From: Desulfoplanes formicivorans
GTDB taxonomy: Bacteria > Desulfobacterota > Desulfovibrionia > Desulfovibrionales > Desulfomicrobiaceae
DNA: 64,000 nucleotides
Assembly: GCF_001748225.1 (NCBI RefSeq)
Contig: NZ_BDFE01000015.1
Coordinates: 62,001 to 126,000 of the forward strand
Reading direction: 5' to 3'
This document shows, one piece after another, positions 30,238-39,709 of this stretch; position 1 is the stretch's first letter; every line of letters begins with the position of its first letter. Position numbers and translations under genes: made by a program. The notes under the pieces are model-generated. The model saw nothing but the letters and a program-made list of their open reading frames with translations, did no database searches and was not told where the DNA came from.

Positions 30238-32070
30238 TCAATGGATACGCACAAGGGATATGCCTGAATACCTGGAAAGCTTCCGGAAGATTGTGGGGAG
30301 AAGGGTGTCGGCGGTTTGATGGGGTAAGGCTAGATCCAGCACCGCTCCCCCGGGAAAACGAGATGCAAGTTGGGCCTGGTGCTCGATCTCGGCGTCCAGG
30401 GAAAGACCGTGGCCAGGGGGCAGGCCCATGCCGTTGGTATAATGGGGACGACCATTGCTGGAAAAAACGATCTCTGTGTACAGCGACTCATCAATCTCTG
30501 CTAGGCGGTAACAGGCCCTGTTGTTGGTCATGGTGGTCACGGCATAGGGGTGACCCGTTTCCCGGGTACAATCCGAGGCAATGGCTGCCAAACGGTCAAT
30601 GACCTTGACCATGAGAGCGATCCCCTCGGGGGTTGCGATACCCGCCCCAAGCAGGTTCATACACGCTTCATGGCCACCGACAACAGTCAGCAGGCTGCAA
30701 TGGTTGGTTAATCCGTTTTCAAGATAGTGCTGCGAATAGGGAAACATCCCGCTATGGGTGTAGTCCACAATGAATTTTCGCTTGAATTCCAGAGCCTGCC
30801 TGGCATACTCCGCATACTCCCCGATGAGATCGAGAAAATCCGATTCCCGCCCGGCCAGAAAAGCAAGCTTGGGAAGATTCAGGGAAATGGCCCCGATGGC
30901 CCCTGTCACACCCTCCACACCCCAAGAGCAATCACACCCCGTCCCAGCCATCTCCCTGTGCCTTTGTTCTCCGGCATCACCTCCACCACGCACGCGCAGG
31001 CAGACACAGCGTCCCAAGGCAGCCAGACGCACAATCCTTGAGCCCGACTCGCTTTCCCAGGAAAATCCGGGAACAAGATCATGGGACAGGACCGGAGATT
31101 CAAGAGGTTGGCCCAGATGGTCTCCTGCAAGCAGCACCTCACCCAGGGCCTTGTTGAGCATGGCTACCTCGCGCTGATATTCGCCATAGGTTGTCTTCTG
31201 ACAGCCCGCAGGCACCCCAACAGGGGTTTGCGCCAGCCAGGGAGGCACATCGCCGTCCAGTCCCAGGGAACACATCGGCAGTCGCTGGCGCCCTTGGGAA
31301 AAGGAGTTGAGGGCCAGAACGAACTGACGCACAAGATGATGGACCCGGTCATAATCCAGGTTTTCCGCCCGGACAAACGGGGCCAGCATGGTGTCGAAAT
31401 GACCGAAGAACTGGGTTGCGGCCCATTCCCCCCCCATGGCGCCCAGAAAAGAGATCACCTGACCAAGGGCCGCATCCAGGTGTTCTGCCGGACCAAAGGC
31501 TGGTACTCCCCTGAATCCAAATCCCTTGCCGAGCAAGGCCTGCAAATCCCATCCAGCACTGTGCCCGGCCATGCCAAAGGCCAGTTCATGAATATGCAGG
31601 TACCCGTTTTCATGAGCCATGCGTATTTCTTCGGGATATTGCTCCAGGGCGTAGCGCTGCTGCACAGCCCCTGCAAGATGTCGGGAAAGCCCCCTGAAGG
31701 AATGGGGCCTGACCGTGCTGCGTCCCTGGGCATCTCCCTTGTGCACATAGGTATCAATGGCGTCCCTGACATCAAGAAAGGCCATGTCCTGGCTCCTGAT
31801 GCCCCGCCTTTTCTCCCGGTACAAAATGTACTTCTTGGCCACGGAGTAGAGCCGGGCTTCCATGAGCACCTGTTCAACCATGTCCTGGACATCTTCCTGC
31901 TCGGGAACGGCCACATCAGCAAGATGTTCTTCCACATTCTGGGCCAGCCGTCTGGCCAGCAGGGGATCCCTGATACCGCTGGCGTTCAGGGATTTGAAGA
32001 TGGCCTTGGCAATGCGGTCCACGGACCAGGTTTCCAGTCGTCCGTCTCGTTTTTGGATTTTTTCAGGCAT
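30238..32070 (-). CDS. Degenerate class III ribonucleotide reductase (NrdD-like) lacking the glycyl radical domain
   Basis: A 610-residue NrdD paralogue. An ATP-cone (MPEKIQKRDGRLETWSVDRI) and most of the barrel are kept (YLHIHELAFGMAGHSAGWDL; GAIGAISLNLPKLAFL; VVGGHEACMNLLG). But it stops at ...SGISLVRIH, where the active paralogue continues 59 more residues with the zinc cysteines and the glycyl radical motif RVTGFY. The GYCAGW cysteine of the active copy is GHSAGW here, and the PYFQNF finger-loop segment is missing. It should not reduce ribonucleotides by the known mechanism. ATG at 32070 overlaps the nrdG stop by 8 bases; a longer frame to 32160 is inside nrdG. An uninterrupted frame argues for a retained, perhaps regulatory, role. 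Confidence 0.85.
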   Translation of the reverse strand: MPEKIQKRDGRLETWSVDRIAKAIFKSLNASGIRDPLLARRLAQNVEEHLADVAVPEQEDVQDMVEQVLMEARLYSVAKKYILYREKRRGIRSQDMAFLDVRDAIDTYVHKGDAQGRSTVRPHSFRGLSRHLAGAVQQRYALEQYPEEIRMAHENGYLHIHELAFGMAGHSAGWDLQALLGKGFGFRGVPAFGPAEHLDAALGQVISFLGAMGGEWAATQFFGHFDTMLAPFVRAENLDYDRVHHLVRQFVLALNSFSQGRQRLPMCSLGLDGDVPPWLAQTPVGVPAGCQKTTYGEYQREVAMLNKALGEVLLAGDHLGQPLESPVLSHDLVPGFSWESESGSRIVRLAALGRCVCLRVRGGGDAGEQRHREMAGTGCDCSWGVEGVTGAIGAISLNLPKLAFLAGRESDFLDLIGEYAEYARQALEFKRKFIVDYTHSGMFPYSQHYLENGLTNHCSLLTVVGGHEACMNLLGAGIATPEGIALMVKVIDRLAAIASDCTRETGHPYAVTTMTNNRACYRLAEIDESLYTEIVFSSNGRPHYTNGMGLPPGHGLSLDAEIEHQAQLASRFPGGAVLDLALPHQTADTLLPTIFRKLSRYSGISLVRIH

Positions 32071-32755
32071 GGTCGCAAAGAGGTAAACTCGTGCTTTGGG
32101 AAAAAACGCCGGATTCGACGCAAGGGCCATCGTCCGAACAATCATTCCCGGACGGTTCAATGAAGTCCTGCAGGATCAACTCGAAACCATCGGGCAGATA
32201 CGAACGGGTCGTTGCAATATCCTCGCAGGTGAGGCAGGGCACCTTTGTACACCGGAAATAAAAACGCTCGGGATACCGGATGGCCAGGGCAAAGATGGCT
32301 TCCAGATGTTTGCGGGCCAGACCGGGGTCAACCCTGTCCCCGGTCAATTGAGGATATTTGTCCCAGGGCCCCTTGACGTCCACAGCGCAACAATCCACCC
32401 GGTCCTGTTCCAGAAACTCGTGTATGAGATCCGGACGCATGCCATTGGTATCCAGCTTGATGGGCAGCCCCATGGTGCGCAGATCCGCAAACACCTGCTC
32501 AATACCCGCAACAATGCAGGCCTCGCCTCCGGTCACCACCACCCCGTCCAGCCAGGATCGCCGCTTGGCCAGATCATTCATGGTCTCTTCCCTGGAGAGC
32601 CTGGGCACGCGCTGAGGATTCCAGGCAATGGTCCGGTTATGACAGGTGGGGCAGCGAAGATTGCAACCCCCGAAAAAGAGCACCGAACAGACATGCCCCG
32701 GCCAGTCACACAGACTGACCGGAGCTATACCGCGCAACAAGTCCCAACCGTTCAT
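32063..32755 (-). CDS. nrdG: Anaerobic ribonucleotide reductase activating enzyme
   Basis: Radical SAM enzyme that installs the glycyl radical on NrdD. The 230-residue protein has the cluster motif CNLRCPTCHN (C-x3-C-x2-C), the SAM-contact VVTGGEA, and KLDTNG. The C terminus has about 25 residues rich in Ser, Cys and Asp beyond the fold. It lies 68 bases after the active nrdD and overlaps the degenerate nrdD-like gene. Confidence 0.92.
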   Translation of the reverse strand: MNGWDLLRGIAPVSLCDWPGHVCSVLFFGGCNLRCPTCHNRTIAWNPQRVPRLSREETMNDLAKRRSWLDGVVVTGGEACIVAGIEQVFADLRTMGLPIKLDTNGMRPDLIHEFLEQDRVDCCAVDVKGPWDKYPQLTGDRVDPGLARKHLEAIFALAIRYPERFYFRCTKVPCLTCEDIATTRSYLPDGFELILQDFIEPSGNDCSDDGPCVESGVFSQSTSLPLCDHA

Positions 32756-32823: not shown

Positions 32824-34881
32824 TCATGCAATCTTGTAGGTCACCCGATCACGGTACTCGGCAGCCTTGCCCTTGTTGAACTTGGTCACAGGCCGGTAAA
32901 AGCCCGTCACCCGGGTGTACACCTCGCACCCCTTGCCGCACTCGGGGCAGGAAAAATGCTCGCCCGACAGGTACCCGTGTTCCTGGCACACGCTAAAGGT
33001 CGGCGTAATGGTGATATAAGGGAGTTTGGTCAGGGTCATAGTCCGGATGATCATTTTCTTGAGGGCTTCCAGGTCATGCACGCTTTCCCCGAGATAGCAG
33101 TGAAAAACCGTGCCGCCCGTGTACAAGGTCTGCAAGGTTGTCTGGTGCTCCATGGCCGCCACCACATCGGACGTGGCTCCCACGGGCAGGTTGGTACTGT
33201 TGGTGTAGTAGGGATCGTCCTCGCCCGAGGCAATAATGCGATCACCATAGGTTGCCTTGTCGATCTTGGCCAGACGGTAGCAGGTTCCCTCGGCCGGAGT
33301 GGCCTCAAGATTGTACAGGTTCCCGGTCTCTTCCTGAAACCGGATCATCAATTCCCGCAACCGGCTGAGCACTCTCTGCATGAAGGCCTGTCCCTGCGGG
33401 GTCTCGATTCCCTTGCCCAGAAGATTCAGACAGGCCTCATGCCCGCCCACCAGGCCAATGGTGGAAAAATGATTCTTGAACCCTTGTTTGAGATACCGTT
33501 TGGTAAAGGGGTAGAATCCCTGCTCAAGAAACGCGGAAATGGTCTTGCGCTTGAGTTCCAGGGCTTCCTTGGCCTGTTCGGCATGCTCTGTCAGTAATTC
33601 GAAGAATTCGTCCTCGTCACGGGCCAGAAAGGCGTATTTGGGCAGGTTCAGGGTGACCACGCCAATACTTCCGGTCATGTCCCCGGACCCGAAAAGACCG
33701 CCGGTCTTCTTGCGCAACTCCCGCAGATCCATGCGCAAACGGCAGCACATGGAACGAACGTCCTCGGGTGTGATGTCCGAGTTGATAAAATTCTGAAAAT
33801 ACGGTGCCCCGTATTTGGCCGTCACCTTGAGAACCAGCTTGCCCACCTCGGAATCCCAGGGAAAATCCTTGGTCACATTATAGGTGGGTATGGGATAGGA
33901 GAAGATCTTGCCGTAGGAATCCCCTTCCAGCATGACCTCCAGAAAGGCCTTGTTGAACAGGTCCTGGGCCTCCTGGAACTCCTTGTAGGTCAGGCTGTCA
34001 TGGTAGGCCCCGCCGATGACCACGGGTTCGTCGGCCATGGACCGGGGACAATGCAAATCCAGGGTGAAATTGGTGAACGGGCTCTGACCGCCCCAGCGGG
34101 AAGTGGTGTTCAGGTTGAAGATGAATTTCTGCATCTCCTGCTTCACCTGCTCGTAGCTGAGGTTGTCGATGCCAATATAGGGGGCCAGCAGGGTATCAAT
34201 ATTGTTGAAGGCCTGGGCTCCGGCCCATTCGTTCTGCAGGGTGCCCAGAAAGTTGACCATCTGCATGAGGGCCGAATCCAGATGCTTGGGCGGCTTGCTG
34301 GAACAAAAACCCGGCGCATTGAATCCTTCCAGCAAGAGGTCCTTGAGGCTCCATCCGGCACAATATCCGGCCAGGCCAAAAGAAAGATCATGGATGTGAA
34401 AATACCCGTTGCGATGGGCCTGCCGGATGTGCTCGGGAAAGGCCTCCAGGGCGTACCTAGCCTGCACCGAACCCGAGGTATGCAGAATAAGCCCCTGAAA
34501 GGAATGACTGACATTGGAATTTTCCTTGGACCGCCAGTCGAATTCCTGAACATATCCATCAATGGTATCACGCACAAAATCCGCTTCCGCTTCCCGGGCC
34601 CGCCTGCGGCTGTCCCTGTACAGGATATAGGCCTTGACCACCTTGGGCAGATTCTGCTGCACCAAAACCTGTTCCACCCGGTCCTGAACATCCTCGATAT
34701 GGGGACAATCGTCTCCTTCGAGCAATTGTTCCACCTTGTTGGTCAATCGTTTGGCCAACAAGACATCGTTGATTTTCTGGGACTGGAGAGCCTTGAAAAT
34801 GGCCGCCTGGATCTTGGATGAATCCCACTCGGCCATGGAGCCGTCGCGTTTGATGATATGCTTGGTTTGCATTCCGGGCAC
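32824..34881 (-). CDS. nrdD: Anaerobic (class III) ribonucleoside-triphosphate reductase
   Basis: Reduces ribonucleoside triphosphates to deoxy forms under anaerobic conditions. The 685-residue protein has an ATP-cone (residues 5-95), FHIHDLSFGLAGYCAGWSL with one active cysteine, the PYFQNF...MCCRLR finger loop with another, four zinc cysteines (SVCQEH; CPECGKGC) and the glycyl radical site RVTGFYRP. GTG at 34881 lies 6 bases after AGGGGA; an ATG three codons later is 15 bases away, so GTG is preferred. It heads nrdD-nrdG-nrdD-like and is preceded by a cobalamin riboswitch. Confidence 0.95.
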   Translation of the reverse strand: MPGMQTKHIIKRDGSMAEWDSSKIQAAIFKALQSQKINDVLLAKRLTNKVEQLLEGDDCPHIEDVQDRVEQVLVQQNLPKVVKAYILYRDSRRRAREAEADFVRDTIDGYVQEFDWRSKENSNVSHSFQGLILHTSGSVQARYALEAFPEHIRQAHRNGYFHIHDLSFGLAGYCAGWSLKDLLLEGFNAPGFCSSKPPKHLDSALMQMVNFLGTLQNEWAGAQAFNNIDTLLAPYIGIDNLSYEQVKQEMQKFIFNLNTTSRWGGQSPFTNFTLDLHCPRSMADEPVVIGGAYHDSLTYKEFQEAQDLFNKAFLEVMLEGDSYGKIFSYPIPTYNVTKDFPWDSEVGKLVLKVTAKYGAPYFQNFINSDITPEDVRSMCCRLRMDLRELRKKTGGLFGSGDMTGSIGVVTLNLPKYAFLARDEDEFFELLTEHAEQAKEALELKRKTISAFLEQGFYPFTKRYLKQGFKNHFSTIGLVGGHEACLNLLGKGIETPQGQAFMQRVLSRLRELMIRFQEETGNLYNLEATPAEGTCYRLAKIDKATYGDRIIASGEDDPYYTNSTNLPVGATSDVVAAMEHQTTLQTLYTGGTVFHCYLGESVHDLEALKKMIIRTMTLTKLPYITITPTFSVCQEHGYLSGEHFSCPECGKGCEVYTRVTGFYRPVTKFNKGKAAEYRDRVTYKIA

Positions 34882-35017
34882 TATGATTCCCCTTTAATGG
34901 TTGGTCCCCGAGCATCCCTGACACGTGACGCGCCACATCACGCCTCGTTGTACACGTCATGGACGAGAAAAGCGTGCCCTTGTGCACGCTGGTTGCTGGA
35001 TGATCGGGGAAGAAATG

Positions 35018-35042
35018 AATCAGGGAGCGAACATCCCTGATT
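35018..35042 (-). terminator. Candidate expression-platform hairpin of the cobalamin riboswitch
   Basis: A perfect 9-bp stem (AATCAGGGA at 35018-35026 with 35034-35042) with a 7-nt loop, followed on the - strand by CATTTCTTCC. It lies between the riboswitch aptamer and nrdD and could stop transcription when cobalamin binds, although its T tract is poor. A second hairpin (GGTTGGT/ACCAACC, 35064-35091) lies closer to the aptamer. Confidence 0.4.
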
Positions 35043-35099
35043 ACAACATGAATGGAATTCTCGCACCGGGTTGGTCTGAACCAACCGGGCGCAAAGATA

Positions 35100-35226
35100 C
35101 TTCAGGCCAGGCGTCTGACTCGCACCGGTCGCGCTGATTTATGGCAGCGGATCTGGTGTTCACAGTGGCTGAACCGTTCCGGAATCCCACCGGATTACCC
35201 CAAAAGCCCCAGAGGGCAACCTGAAG
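35100..35226 (-). promoter_or_regulatory. Cobalamin (adenosylcobalamin) riboswitch
   Basis: On the - strand the closing stem CTTCAGG (35226 side) pairs with CCTGAAG (35100 side). Between them are GGTGGGATTCCGG, the invariant core GCCACTGT (35162-35169) and a B12-box-like element AGTCAGACGCCTGGCC (about 35105-35122). Order and spacing fit the cobalamin riboswitch. It sits in the leader of nrdD, a B12-independent reductase. In other bacteria such riboswitches shut off B12-independent isozymes when cobalamin is plentiful. Confidence 0.85.
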
Positions 35227-35245
35227 ACATGGTGACAAAGCTGTT

Positions 35246-35274
35246 TATCTATCTTTGCATTGCGTTCTTGGCAA
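35246..35274 (-). promoter_or_regulatory. Probable sigma-70 promoter of the nrdD operon
   Basis: On the - strand TTGCCA (35269-35274) and TAGATA (35246-35251) are 17 bases apart, and transcription would start about 15 bases before the riboswitch closing stem. The rest of the 754-base gap, from 35275 to 35563, shows no gene or structure I can support. Confidence 0.55.
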
Positions 35275-35635: not shown

Positions 35636-36868
35636 CTAGGAGTTGAGCTCCTTTTCCTTGGGAAAGATGGGCAGATACCTGTAGGACAGGCTCATGAGCA
35701 ACGCACCATAGGCCACAATCATGAGGGACGTGGACCACTCTGCCCAGTTGGGAATATAGACGTTCCAGACATCAAAGGGCATGACCGGATGGGCCGAAGT
35801 CTGCACCGTCTGGACGAACCGATTGATGACAATGCCCGTACAGTTGAGCAGGGCCGCAAGGTACATCAGACCATGGATTTTGCGGATGGCCGGAACCACC
35901 AGCATGATGGCAGGAATGACCCCGCAAAAGAGCAGTTCGGTCCACAAAAGCCATTTGCCGTAGGCAAGGCCGTAGAACATCTGGTCAAAGGTCAGCCCCG
36001 CCTTGGGCAGCAGGCCATTGGCCCATGCCCACGTATCCAGAATCTTCCAGAATATGTAGAAGGCGAGCAAAAGACCGGAGATCTTGGCCATGAGTTCTTT
36101 GGTAGCGTCATCCACAAGCCTCTTGCCGGACATGAGCTCCATGAGCTTGTTCACCAACAGGGTAAAGGACGGACCCGAGGCAATGGCCGAGGCAATGAAC
36201 AGAAAGAAGGTCCACGGCCAGATGAAAAACCCTTCACGAAAGGCATAGGGACGGCCGAAAAGCACGCCGTACATGCCACCCAGGGAACCCTGATGGAAAA
36301 AGGACAGAAAGGTACCGATCCCTGCAAAAAGCGGCATGTACACATGGAAATTGTGGGCCAGATGATGCAGGAAACGATTCTTGTTGAGGACCCGGTTTTC
36401 CAGGATCAGGGGAACGTATTCGATGATCAGGACCGTACAGTAACAGGTGATACAGAAGATAACTTCCGTGAGCATGGAATGGACATTGGGATGCCAGTAT
36501 CCGAACCATGCCCGCAACGGCTGACCAATATCAAGGACCAGGACCATCATGGCTCCCGAATAGCAGAGGAACCCGATGATGACCGTGAGGTTGATGATGT
36601 TCTTGAGCTGGTCAATGCGCAGGATATACCGCAAAAACCCGGTAAAAAAGGCTCCGGCACCCAGGGCGATGACCGCCAGGTCAAAGGTGATCCACAAACC
36701 AAATCCGAAGTAGTTGTCCAGACCGGTCGTACCCAGTCCCTGCGAAAGGATGACATAGGCGCCGTAAAGTCCCCAGCCAAGGAAGATGCCCACAAATGCC
36801 AACCAGAGCAGAAACCTGCCAATTGAACACCGTTGTACCCCTTCGGGTATCCAAGCTTTATCAATCAT
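35636..36868 (-). CDS. qrcD: Menaquinone reductase Qrc, integral membrane subunit
   Basis: NrfD/PsrC-family membrane subunit that carries the menaquinone site of the Qrc complex. The 410-residue protein has about ten hydrophobic segments, beginning with FLLWLAFVGIFLGWGLYGAYVIL, and loops such as LDIGQPLRAWFGYWHPN and FFHQGSLGGMYGVLFGRPYAF typical of the family. It starts 3 bases after qrcC stops. The gene order qrcABCD and each subunit type match the complex described from Desulfovibrio vulgaris. Confidence 0.93.
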   Translation of the reverse strand: MIDKAWIPEGVQRCSIGRFLLWLAFVGIFLGWGLYGAYVILSQGLGTTGLDNYFGFGLWITFDLAVIALGAGAFFTGFLRYILRIDQLKNIINLTVIIGFLCYSGAMMVLVLDIGQPLRAWFGYWHPNVHSMLTEVIFCITCYCTVLIIEYVPLILENRVLNKNRFLHHLAHNFHVYMPLFAGIGTFLSFFHQGSLGGMYGVLFGRPYAFREGFFIWPWTFFLFIASAIASGPSFTLLVNKLMELMSGKRLVDDATKELMAKISGLLLAFYIFWKILDTWAWANGLLPKAGLTFDQMFYGLAYGKWLLWTELLFCGVIPAIMLVVPAIRKIHGLMYLAALLNCTGIVINRFVQTVQTSAHPVMPFDVWNVYIPNWAEWSTSLMIVAYGALLMSLSYRYLPIFPKEKELNS

Positions 36869-36871
36869 TGC

Positions 36872-37639
36872 CTACGCTCCCTTGGTCTTTTCGGTTTTGA
36901 GGTAGTTGTCACCCTGACGGCGGACCCACTCCCTTTTGGAATAGTAATAGACCTGCGGGTCAGTACCCAAACGCTCCAGGAGCCTGAACGCGTATTTTTC
37001 ATGGGCCATCTTGTAAACCGTGTGCTCGGGGTTGTTCAGATCGCCGAAATGCATGGCCCCGCTGGGACAGGCAGCCACACATGCCGGGATGTAATCGTTT
37101 TCTTCGAGATGCAGGGGATCACGTCCTTCGGCCCTGGCAAGCTCCTTGGCCTCGGCATACTTATGGTGGCAGAAGGTACATTTCTCGGCCACACCACGAG
37201 GACGTACGGACACGTTGGGAGTCAGGGTCTTTTCCATGCCCTCGGGCCAGATGGGATCATACCAGTTGAAGTACCGGGCATGGTAGGGGCAGGCGGCCAT
37301 GCAGTACCGGCAACCGATACAGCGGGGATAGATCTGGCTGACGATCCCGCCTTCCTCGTTCTTGTCAATGGCCGTAACCGGACAGACGGTCATGCACGAA
37401 GGTTTGCCGCACTGCATGCACGGACGGGGAAGATAGGCCACATCATGATCGGGATAGGCCTTGCCGTTGGTCAATTCGTACACAAGCATCCAAGAAAGCG
37501 TGCGCAGCTTGTTGGATGAATCAGTGGTAGGGGCAATATTGTTCTCGGCCTCGCAGGCAACCATACAGGCACCGCAGCCCGTACACTTGTCCAGGTCAAC
37601 GACCATGCCCCAGCGGATTTTCGATTCTTTATGCTCCAT
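36872..37639 (-). CDS. qrcC: Menaquinone reductase Qrc, iron-sulfur subunit
   Basis: A 255-residue ferredoxin-like subunit with four cysteine motifs: CTGCGACMVACEAEN, CMQCGKPSCMTVCP, CIGCRYCMAACPYHARYF, and CTFCHH...CVAACPSGAM. It wires the cytochrome QrcA and QrcB to the quinone site of QrcD. It has no signal peptide, so export to the periplasmic face is expected by co-transport with the twin-arginine QrcB. Third gene of the operon. Confidence 0.93.
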   Translation of the reverse strand: MEHKESKIRWGMVVDLDKCTGCGACMVACEAENNIAPTTDSSNKLRTLSWMLVYELTNGKAYPDHDVAYLPRPCMQCGKPSCMTVCPVTAIDKNEEGGIVSQIYPRCIGCRYCMAACPYHARYFNWYDPIWPEGMEKTLTPNVSVRPRGVAEKCTFCHHKYAEAKELARAEGRDPLHLEENDYIPACVAACPSGAMHFGDLNNPEHTVYKMAHEKYAFRLLERLGTDPQVYYYSKREWVRRQGDNYLKTEKTKGA

Positions 37640-37657
37640 TATGGACTACCTCTCTCC

Positions 37658-39709
37658 TTAGGCCCTGGTGATTTGTACCTGGGGATTGCCGAACAGGGAC
37701 ATACCGGTCCCGGGTTCAGGCTTTATTTCCATCAGCTTGTACACATTGTCGCCCTTGTTCTTGGCAAACTCGTCCCAGGCCGTGTGACCGAACCCGAGGG
37801 GCATGGCGACCACACCGGGCATGATGGATTCAGACAGGGAAACAACAGCCTGACAGGAACCGGCAGCGCTTCTGGCTACAATGGCCTGCCCGTCTCTGAC
37901 TCCGAGTTTGCCGGCCGTGGCCCTGTTCATCTGGGCGCACAGGATATTGTTCTTGAGTTCGGTGTCCCTGATGGTCAAAACGCCAAAGGGAGTCGTGGGC
38001 ATACCCGCTGTTCCCAGGTGCAGTTTGGCCATGGGAGCAAGCACGAGGTCGTCAGCAGCACGGGGAACCCCCAGGGCACGGAGACTCTCGTTCCACAGGG
38101 CCAGACCATAGCCGTTGGTGGAGGTTGCAGCCACCCAGGCCGTTCCCTCGACCAACTCGTCCCAATCGGCACCCAGGGCCTCGGCCTTGGCCTTGAGAGC
38201 ATCCTCAAAAGAGCTCACGCCCAGATCAATGCCTGTTGCTGCAGCCAGTTCCAGAAGCACGTCAGCAGCGGGCCGGGTGTCGAACACGGGCTCCACGATC
38301 GCCGGGGAAACCGTGTAATTGGCCTGTCCGGAACCAAAGGGTGTATATACGTCATCCATGGCCTCGAGAAAATAGGATGCAGGCAGGATGAGATCAGCCA
38401 TGGCAGCGGTTTCATCCATAAAGGTGGCAAAGCTGACCACAAAACCGCTTTTTTCCAGGGCCTTGGCGACCATATCGGGTTGCGGCAGGGCATAGGCGGG
38501 ATTGGCGTCCACAATGAGCGTCACCTTGGGGGCCTGGGCCTTGCCCTGGGCCACGGCCTGGACATATCCGGCCGCATCACGGGCAAGCAAGGTATCCCTG
38601 GCCGGTGCGTTGGCAACCACCTGCGGGGCAAAGGGAATATCCCTGACTCCTCCCCTGGCGTTGATCCGTCCAAGAAGCATGTTCAGGGCCAGCCCCATGG
38701 CCGCACCCATGGCATCCGAACCCTGGCCCATTTCCGAACCGGTAAGAACCAGCGGCCGCTTGGCCCGCATGAGTTCTTCGGCCATACGCTTCATGGTCGC
38801 TTCGGAAACCCCCGTTGCCTTGGCAATGCGGGAAGGCGGATTGGTGACCGTGACGAATTCGCTGAACGCGCCGTAGCCGGGCATATCCATGCCCTTGCCG
38901 GCCTTGATGAGATATGCCGCAATTCCCAGAGCCACAAGGGATTCACGCCCGGGCTTGCAGGCAACCCAGGTTTTGGACGGGATGGAGGTACCGGGCTTTT
39001 GCACCGCGCCCACATAGACATACGCGGCCTTGTTGGCGGCCATGGCCTTGCCGTTGCGGACAACCGTACCCCAGGATTCATTGATATCGCCACCCAGGCT
39101 GAGAACATAATCCGCGTTTTCCAGATCATAACCGGGCGTTCCCTGCCCACCAAGCATCTTCCAGGCGGTGACGGCCGGAGCGGTTTCACCAGACATGAGA
39201 AAACACTTGTCAGATCCCAGACCGGCCAGCAATCCGGCAAGAATGTCTGTCGTGGTTCCTGTTTCATCCCCGGTGATGGCGCAGACATCACTGCCCGCGC
39301 TCTTGACCTTGGCGGCCAGGAGTTTGCCGGCCTCGTCCCATGAAATGTTTTCAAATCCGTTGCCGGACTTCTTCATTGGCCCCTGAATGCGTGACGGGCT
39401 GTACAGCATCTGCACGCTGGCAACGCCCAGGGGATCAATGCCTCCCTGACTCAGGGGGTGGTCCGGATTGCCTCTGGCGGTAAAAGGGCGTCCTGCAGCG
39501 GTTTCAACCAGAATGCCATAGGCGTCGGAGCCAAACTTGCAGGCCACGGGCTTGTTCACCCGCTCGCCATACTGCAATTTGGGAATCCACGGCCAATTCT
39601 GGCTCCAGATGGAAACATCGTCCAGGAACTTCCATACCATGGGGGTACAGAGGATCCCGCCTGTGCCGCCAGCCAAAAACGCTATAAAACTTCTGCGATC
39701 AAGTCCCAT
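37658..39709 (-). CDS. qrcB: Menaquinone reductase Qrc, molybdopterin-oxidoreductase-like subunit
   Basis: A 683-residue periplasmic subunit with a twin-arginine signal (LDRRSFIAFLAGGTGG). The body follows the molybdopterin oxidoreductase fold (ENISWDEAGKLLAAKV; ADYVLSLGGDINESWG; LTGSEMGQGSDAMGAA; ADLILPASYFLEAMDD). No N-terminal cluster-binding cysteine motif and no obvious Cys/Sec/Ser metal ligand are seen, in keeping with QrcB lacking a molybdenum cofactor. Structural role in electron transfer inferred from the known complex. Confidence 0.93.
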   Translation of the reverse strand: MGLDRRSFIAFLAGGTGGILCTPMVWKFLDDVSIWSQNWPWIPKLQYGERVNKPVACKFGSDAYGILVETAAGRPFTARGNPDHPLSQGGIDPLGVASVQMLYSPSRIQGPMKKSGNGFENISWDEAGKLLAAKVKSAGSDVCAITGDETGTTTDILAGLLAGLGSDKCFLMSGETAPAVTAWKMLGGQGTPGYDLENADYVLSLGGDINESWGTVVRNGKAMAANKAAYVYVGAVQKPGTSIPSKTWVACKPGRESLVALGIAAYLIKAGKGMDMPGYGAFSEFVTVTNPPSRIAKATGVSEATMKRMAEELMRAKRPLVLTGSEMGQGSDAMGAAMGLALNMLLGRINARGGVRDIPFAPQVVANAPARDTLLARDAAGYVQAVAQGKAQAPKVTLIVDANPAYALPQPDMVAKALEKSGFVVSFATFMDETAAMADLILPASYFLEAMDDVYTPFGSGQANYTVSPAIVEPVFDTRPAADVLLELAAATGIDLGVSSFEDALKAKAEALGADWDELVEGTAWVAATSTNGYGLALWNESLRALGVPRAADDLVLAPMAKLHLGTAGMPTTPFGVLTIRDTELKNNILCAQMNRATAGKLGVRDGQAIVARSAAGSCQAVVSLSESIMPGVVAMPLGFGHTAWDEFAKNKGDNVYKLMEIKPEPGTGMSLFGNPQVQITRA

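Follow-up and report, generated by a model that had tools for sequence, protein, structure and literature searches.

Why should a cobalamin-sensing RNA stand in front of genes for a reductase that is itself independent of B12, does that RNA still look able to work, and what does the operon behind it encode? These questions are raised by a leader on the minus strand of a stretch of 64,000 nucleotides of Desulfoplanes formicivorans DNA, hereafter the window. A preliminary description had read in this leader a closing stem, a core and a B12-box in that order, preceded by a promoter and followed by a class III ribonucleotide reductase operon, and had proposed that the organism also possesses a B12-dependent class II reductase, NrdJ, and switches between the two isozymes according to cobalamin supply.

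The Rfam covariance model for cobalamin riboswitches (RF00174), run on the minus-strand leader, matches at 35239-35088 with 33.0 bits against a gathering cut-off of 31.5 (E-value 1.3e-4 in the search of the window and 1.4e-6 in that of the genome); in the 64-kb window, an Rfam search returned no other RNA family at or above its own cut-off except two tRNAs. The P2 stem (CUUCAGG/CCUGAAG), the core GCCACUGU and the B12-box are all present in the order that had been described, the B12-box in an altered form common to D. formicivorans and its sister species Desulfoplanes sp.: GAAAACC has become GACGCC, the junction before P4 (J3/4) has likewise changed from GGGAA to GGUAA in both, and both retain the P2 and P4 stems. 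The window aptamer deviates at six of 54 conserved columns, as does that of the sister, four of the deviations being common to the two. Single-sequence folding of the aptamer gives no signal (z 0.2). The riboswitch element proper comprises the promoter-like segment (35246-35274) and the aptamer (35088-35239), the remainder, from 34881 to 35087, being structured leader.

In 21 of the 22 Desulfomicrobiaceae genomes, the nrdD/nrdG operon for the class III reductase has an RF00174 match upstream, and the contig of the remaining one (G009) stops inside nrdG, before the leader. A chance match was considered and rejected on the strength of these 21 orthologous elements. Between the window and the sister species, the aptamer is 67% identical and the next 188 nt of the leader 35%. 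Because of this family-wide association, and because the aptamer is more conserved than the leader behind it, the element must be regarded as real, and selection must have preserved it until recent times at the least; the presence of a cobalamin riboswitch-family element before the class III operon is confirmed. By its score it is a weak copy of the family element, since matches ahead of nrd genes in genera g2 and g3 reach 57-118 bits, and it is also the weaker of two RF00174 matches in the D. formicivorans genome, the other scoring 120.8 bits. It is best described as a homologue of the aptamer family with a putative regulatory role. The features of the locus are collected in Table 1.

Table 1. 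Features of the nrd operon and its leader in the window.
Feature	Position	Strand	Basis or remark
nrdD2, NrdD-like putative pseudoenzyme, 610 aa	30238..32070	-	ATG overlaps nrdG stop by 8 nt
nrdG, radical-SAM activase, NrdG2 family	32063..32755	-	TIGR02495, 136.3 bits (cut-off 131.15)
nrdD, class III ribonucleotide reductase, 685 aa, GTG start	32824..34881	-	NF006126, TIGR02487
Long-range stem, 34998-35010 with 34905-34917, ending 10 nt before Shine-Dalgarno	34905..35010	-	Fold
Terminator-like hairpin 2, followed by TTTCTC	34971..34990	-	Terminator scan
Terminator-like hairpin 1, poor T tract	35018..35042	-	Terminator scan
P13-like hairpin, loop UCAG, directly after aptamer	35063..35092	-	Inverted repeat I2 and minimum-energy fold
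Cobalamin riboswitch aptamer (RF00174)	35088..35239	-	33.0 bits; orthologues in 21/22 family genomes
B12-box region AGTCAGACGCCTGGCC	35105..35120	-	Altered in Desulfoplanes; alignment of 20 aptamers
L5 pentamer UUCAG (UCCCG in most relatives)	35169..35173	-	Leader comparison
Promoter-like element TTGCCA-N17-TAGATA	35246..35274	-	Spacing and similar hexamers in sister

The class III operon is also as expected, NrdD being full length and scoring 1004.6 bits with NF006126 (cut-off 548) and 533.7 bits with TIGR02487 (cut-off 326), with a Shine-Dalgarno sequence, AAAGGGG, at 34895-34889. The order riboswitch-nrdG-nrdD is found in nearly all other family members; G010 has riboswitch-nrdD-nrdG and a more distant NrdD, and in Desulfoplanes nrdD comes after the riboswitch, the order in the window being nrdD-nrdG-nrdD2.

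The promoter fared less well: it is weak by consensus, and a sigma-70 consensus scan did not pick it up. What speaks for it is its counterpart in the sister, TTGCAA-N17-TACATA, with similar hexamers and identical spacing and place, the two elements ending 6 (window) and 10 nt (sister) before the matched aptamer. Directly upstream of the nrd leader, on the same strand (35636-39709), lies a quinone-reductase complex in which QrcD exceeds its NCBIfam cut-off and is accompanied by apparent iron-sulfur and molybdopterin-type subunits. Downstream of the aptamer, the leader is unusually structured (z -3.1 for 34860-35110), with two terminator-like hairpins where shuffles give 0.6, and the long-range stem close to the Shine-Dalgarno sequence has a counterpart formed by different bases in the sister leader. 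Separately, GGUUGGU (35080-35086), which forms the 5' arm of the P13-like hairpin, could alternatively pair with ACCAACC (34899-34905) just before the Shine-Dalgarno sequence, a 7-nt match near chance level.

For regulation, corrinoid riboswitches depend on L5 and L13 forming a kissing loop (PMC10653944). In 13 of 18 family nrd leaders, the sister species included, an L5 of the sequence UCCCG is matched by an L13 of the sequence CGnGGA, borne on a hairpin that follows P2 at a distance of about 20 nt and forming five pairs with one bulged base; the G003 leader, for which the wrong stretch was examined, falls outside these 13. For UUCAG, the L5 pentamer of the window, the 90 nt that follow contain no L13 partner, and inspection of the remaining leader by eye revealed none either. 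The canonical pair is also absent from the leaders of G010, G019 and G020, so that its loss need not abolish function; since the complementarity is nevertheless absent here, a response to B12 is likely, not certain.

On these comparisons it is fairly probable that the leader before the three-gene class III operon is a cobalamin riboswitch through which cobamides regulate nrd expression. The same element could be a riboswitch decaying in an apparently B12-auxotrophic species, a homologue in which cobalamin binding has become uncoupled from expression, as its score close to the cut-off and the loss of both UCCCG and any L13 partner would suggest. We hold this to be somewhat doubtful: the aptamer has accumulated no more departures from the conserved columns than that of the sister, most of them shared, it has remained far more similar to its orthologue than has the adjoining leader, and L5 is also non-canonical (UGCUG) in two members of another genus, so that the loss need not mean death of the switch. 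Alternatively, the changes in the B12-box and J3/4, which are shared by both Desulfoplanes and leave P2 and P4 intact, might reflect a preference shifted towards another cobamide or upper ligand instead of decay; yet relaxed constraint is expected to give the very same changes, and a shift of this kind seems distinctly unlikely.

Regulation by cobamides would make sense in a genome that also encodes a B12-dependent reductase, and the class II NrdJ that had been predicted was looked for and found elsewhere in the genome as a single protein (TIGR02504, 406.1 bits; cut-off 399.95). Encoded at L007:650-3508 in a longer frame, the NrdJ of this genus scores far lower (406 bits) than those of most other family members (about 720-744), and looks like a different NrdJ lineage. 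As for the cofactor, CbiD was not found by two models, nor CobS by one, in the D. formicivorans genome, which is scored 100% complete; CbiD is present in 18 of the 22 family genomes, the sister included. B12 synthesis appears to have been lost in D. formicivorans, dependence on outside B12 is made plausible by the lack of CbiD and CobS, and cobamides are probably imported. The 120.8-bit riboswitch directly precedes an uptake locus comprising a TonB-dependent receptor (BtuB) and a BtuF-like binding protein. Near that riboswitch, a single frame (L008:4237-5106) matches models of both the MntA antitoxin and the HepT toxin, an apparent fusion.

With NrdJ present and cobamides probably imported, it is reasonable to suppose that the availability of B12 decides whether NrdJ or NrdDG is used. 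With imported cobalamin in good supply, the ligand-bound aptamer would lower expression of the B12-independent reductase and leave dNTP supply to NrdJ; when cobalamin is scarce, the nrd operon would be on. The switching step would lie in the 200-nt structured leader, with its P13-like hairpin, two terminator-like hairpins and the long-range stem by the Shine-Dalgarno sequence. The proposed isozyme switch draws on the riboswitch family, the class III operon and NrdJ, all of which stand; against it count the missing L5-L13 pair and two relatives, G015 (99% complete) and G021 (85%), in which neither NrdJ nor a class I large subunit was detected and which retain riboswitch-nrdG-nrdD (L072 and L063, respectively). 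If true, B12 repression would in these two hit the sole reductase.

The idea of such a switch has, moreover, already been published, and the pairing of riboswitch and nrdDG is not new: in 2004 Rodionov et al. (PMC545781) predicted it for Desulfovibrio vulgaris and Desulfuromonas, in which a B12-element stands ahead of nrdDG and, as here, a cobalamin riboswitch precedes a class III reductase in a genome that also contains NrdJ. By comparison with these, the window has the order nrdD-nrdG-nrdD2 and a weak aptamer without the L5-L13 pair, in a genome where CbiD and CobS were not found. Cutibacterium (Propionibacterium) acnes, from a different phylum, likewise has NrdJ and a cobalamin riboswitch annotated in the nrdDG 5' UTR, but also one before nrdAB; a choice between isozymes by B12 supply was put forward for it in 2013 with RNA-seq, which suggests early termination in nrdAB, and no second NrdD is mentioned there (PMC3848588). 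As regards the pairing of riboswitch and nrdDG, the 2004 prediction is confirmed in one more genus, and the novelty of the locus is NrdD2 as third gene, a second, non-catalytic NrdD that the preliminary description had missed.

NrdD2 is 41-42% identical to the NrdD of its own operon, and its divergence is distributed very unevenly. Counted over the residues strictly invariant in 23 NrdDs of the order, the window copy of NrdD2 keeps 36 of 36 in the ATP-cone, 131 of 228 in the barrel, seven of 36 in the radical-cysteine loop and none of 34 in the glycyl-radical domain with its zinc cysteines; the substrate-covering NxN flap (NSN in NrdD) is replaced as well. For the NrdD of the window, the corresponding counts are 205 of 228 in the barrel and 27 of 36 in the ATP-cone, a bias in the opposite sense; to the cones of most relatives, that of NrdD2 is 64-75% identical and that of NrdD 42-49%. 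A partial NrdD2 of the sister (residues 211-610) ends at the identical point and is without the same two catalytic parts; its N-terminal part is absent from the contig, and the conservation of the ATP-cone is therefore that of the window sequence alone. AlphaFold2 predicts a reductase-like fold for NrdD2 (mean pLDDT 76, pTM 0.69), with pLDDT below 50 only at residues 94-97, in the former flap (112-122), at 258-262 and in the former cysteine loop (362-388), and the solved structures nearest to the model are class III reductases (Foldseek top matches 9d3x and 8p28).

NrdD2 has been seen only in Desulfoplanes. When 297 genomes of the order were scanned for NrdD2 outside this genus, none stood out among the listed matches read, the NrdDs listed being of 44-50% identity and mostly in frames of at least 680 aa; in a scan of named genomes, the cysteine loop, the flap and the glycyl-radical motif were found at 19 of 21 loci, the exceptions being the Desulfoplanes sister and a Salidesulfovibrio frame broken late. 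No inactive NrdD paralogue was met with in the literature searched. In a tree the two NrdD2s group together, long branches leaving the origin of NrdD2 and of NrdD without resolution. In relatives the gene after nrdG is nrdD, and in the window that place is taken by nrdD2; this suggests that the original copy gave rise to NrdD2 and that today's NrdD was added ahead of it.

That the gaps of NrdD2 are frameshifts introduced by sequencing or assembly is very improbable indeed. The window copy does have a scrambled, shortened cysteine-loop segment, as such an error might leave, but the missing motifs occur in no other frame, a glycyl-radical domain is absent downstream of nrdD2 in every frame, and the independently assembled sister is without the same two parts; the explanation was rejected on these grounds. 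A pseudogene on its way out, its frame open by chance, is a more natural thought, given that the catalytic elements are gone and that divergence of the protein is rapid (it is 52% identical to its counterpart in the sister, residues 1-127 of NrdD being 84% identical). It is nonetheless unlikely: the frame is open over 610 codons in the window, as is the part of it present in the sister (412 codons), the start overlaps the nrdG stop, the ATP-cone is complete in its invariant residues, and the two NrdD2 genes differ most often at third codon positions (37, 31 and 60% at positions 1, 2 and 3). With dN 0.44 and dS 2.08, the latter near saturation, dN/dS is about 0.21, by which estimate NrdD2 is under purifying selection.

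The simplest reading of these sequences is that NrdD2 would be a pseudoenzyme retained because of its ATP-cone and its contacts in oligomers, perhaps a non-catalytic, regulatory subunit. In NrdDs of solved structure, the cone exerts its control over activity either by contacts between cones within dimers or by way of tetramers (PMC12662201, PMC11226230), and a mixed NrdD-NrdD2 oligomer could thus carry such control. By operon layout NrdD2 would be co-expressed with NrdD, and its likeliest role would be to bind ATP/dATP and modulate NrdD via mixed oligomers. Tentatively, the class III functions of Desulfoplanes might be split over two genes of one B12-controlled operon, NrdD providing catalysis with a drifted cone and NrdD2 acting as an ATP/dATP-sensing subunit in trans without catalysis. 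A comparable protein is NrdR, the ATP-cone transcriptional repressor of reductase genes, which binds DNA and carries a zinc ribbon: both are non-catalytic proteins with an ATP-cone, a domain that can sense ATP/dATP, and NrdD2 has a reductase barrel where NrdR has the zinc ribbon. With the NrdD structures of P. copri and S. thermophilus, NrdD2 shares the ATP-cone and the predicted barrel, but it is without their NxN flap, radical cysteine loop and glycyl-radical domain (PMC11226230, PMC12662201).

In D. formicivorans, where B12 synthesis has apparently been lost, the proposed isozyme switch takes on real weight. In class III reductases with solved structures, activity control and catalysis reside in the same chain, and the control of the active site by the cone has been ascribed either to the glycyl-radical domain together with the flap (PMC11226230) or to the substrate flap alone (PMC12662201). 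For the study of this control, a conserved NrdD that has lost catalysis and kept a perfect ATP-cone would amount to a natural experiment.
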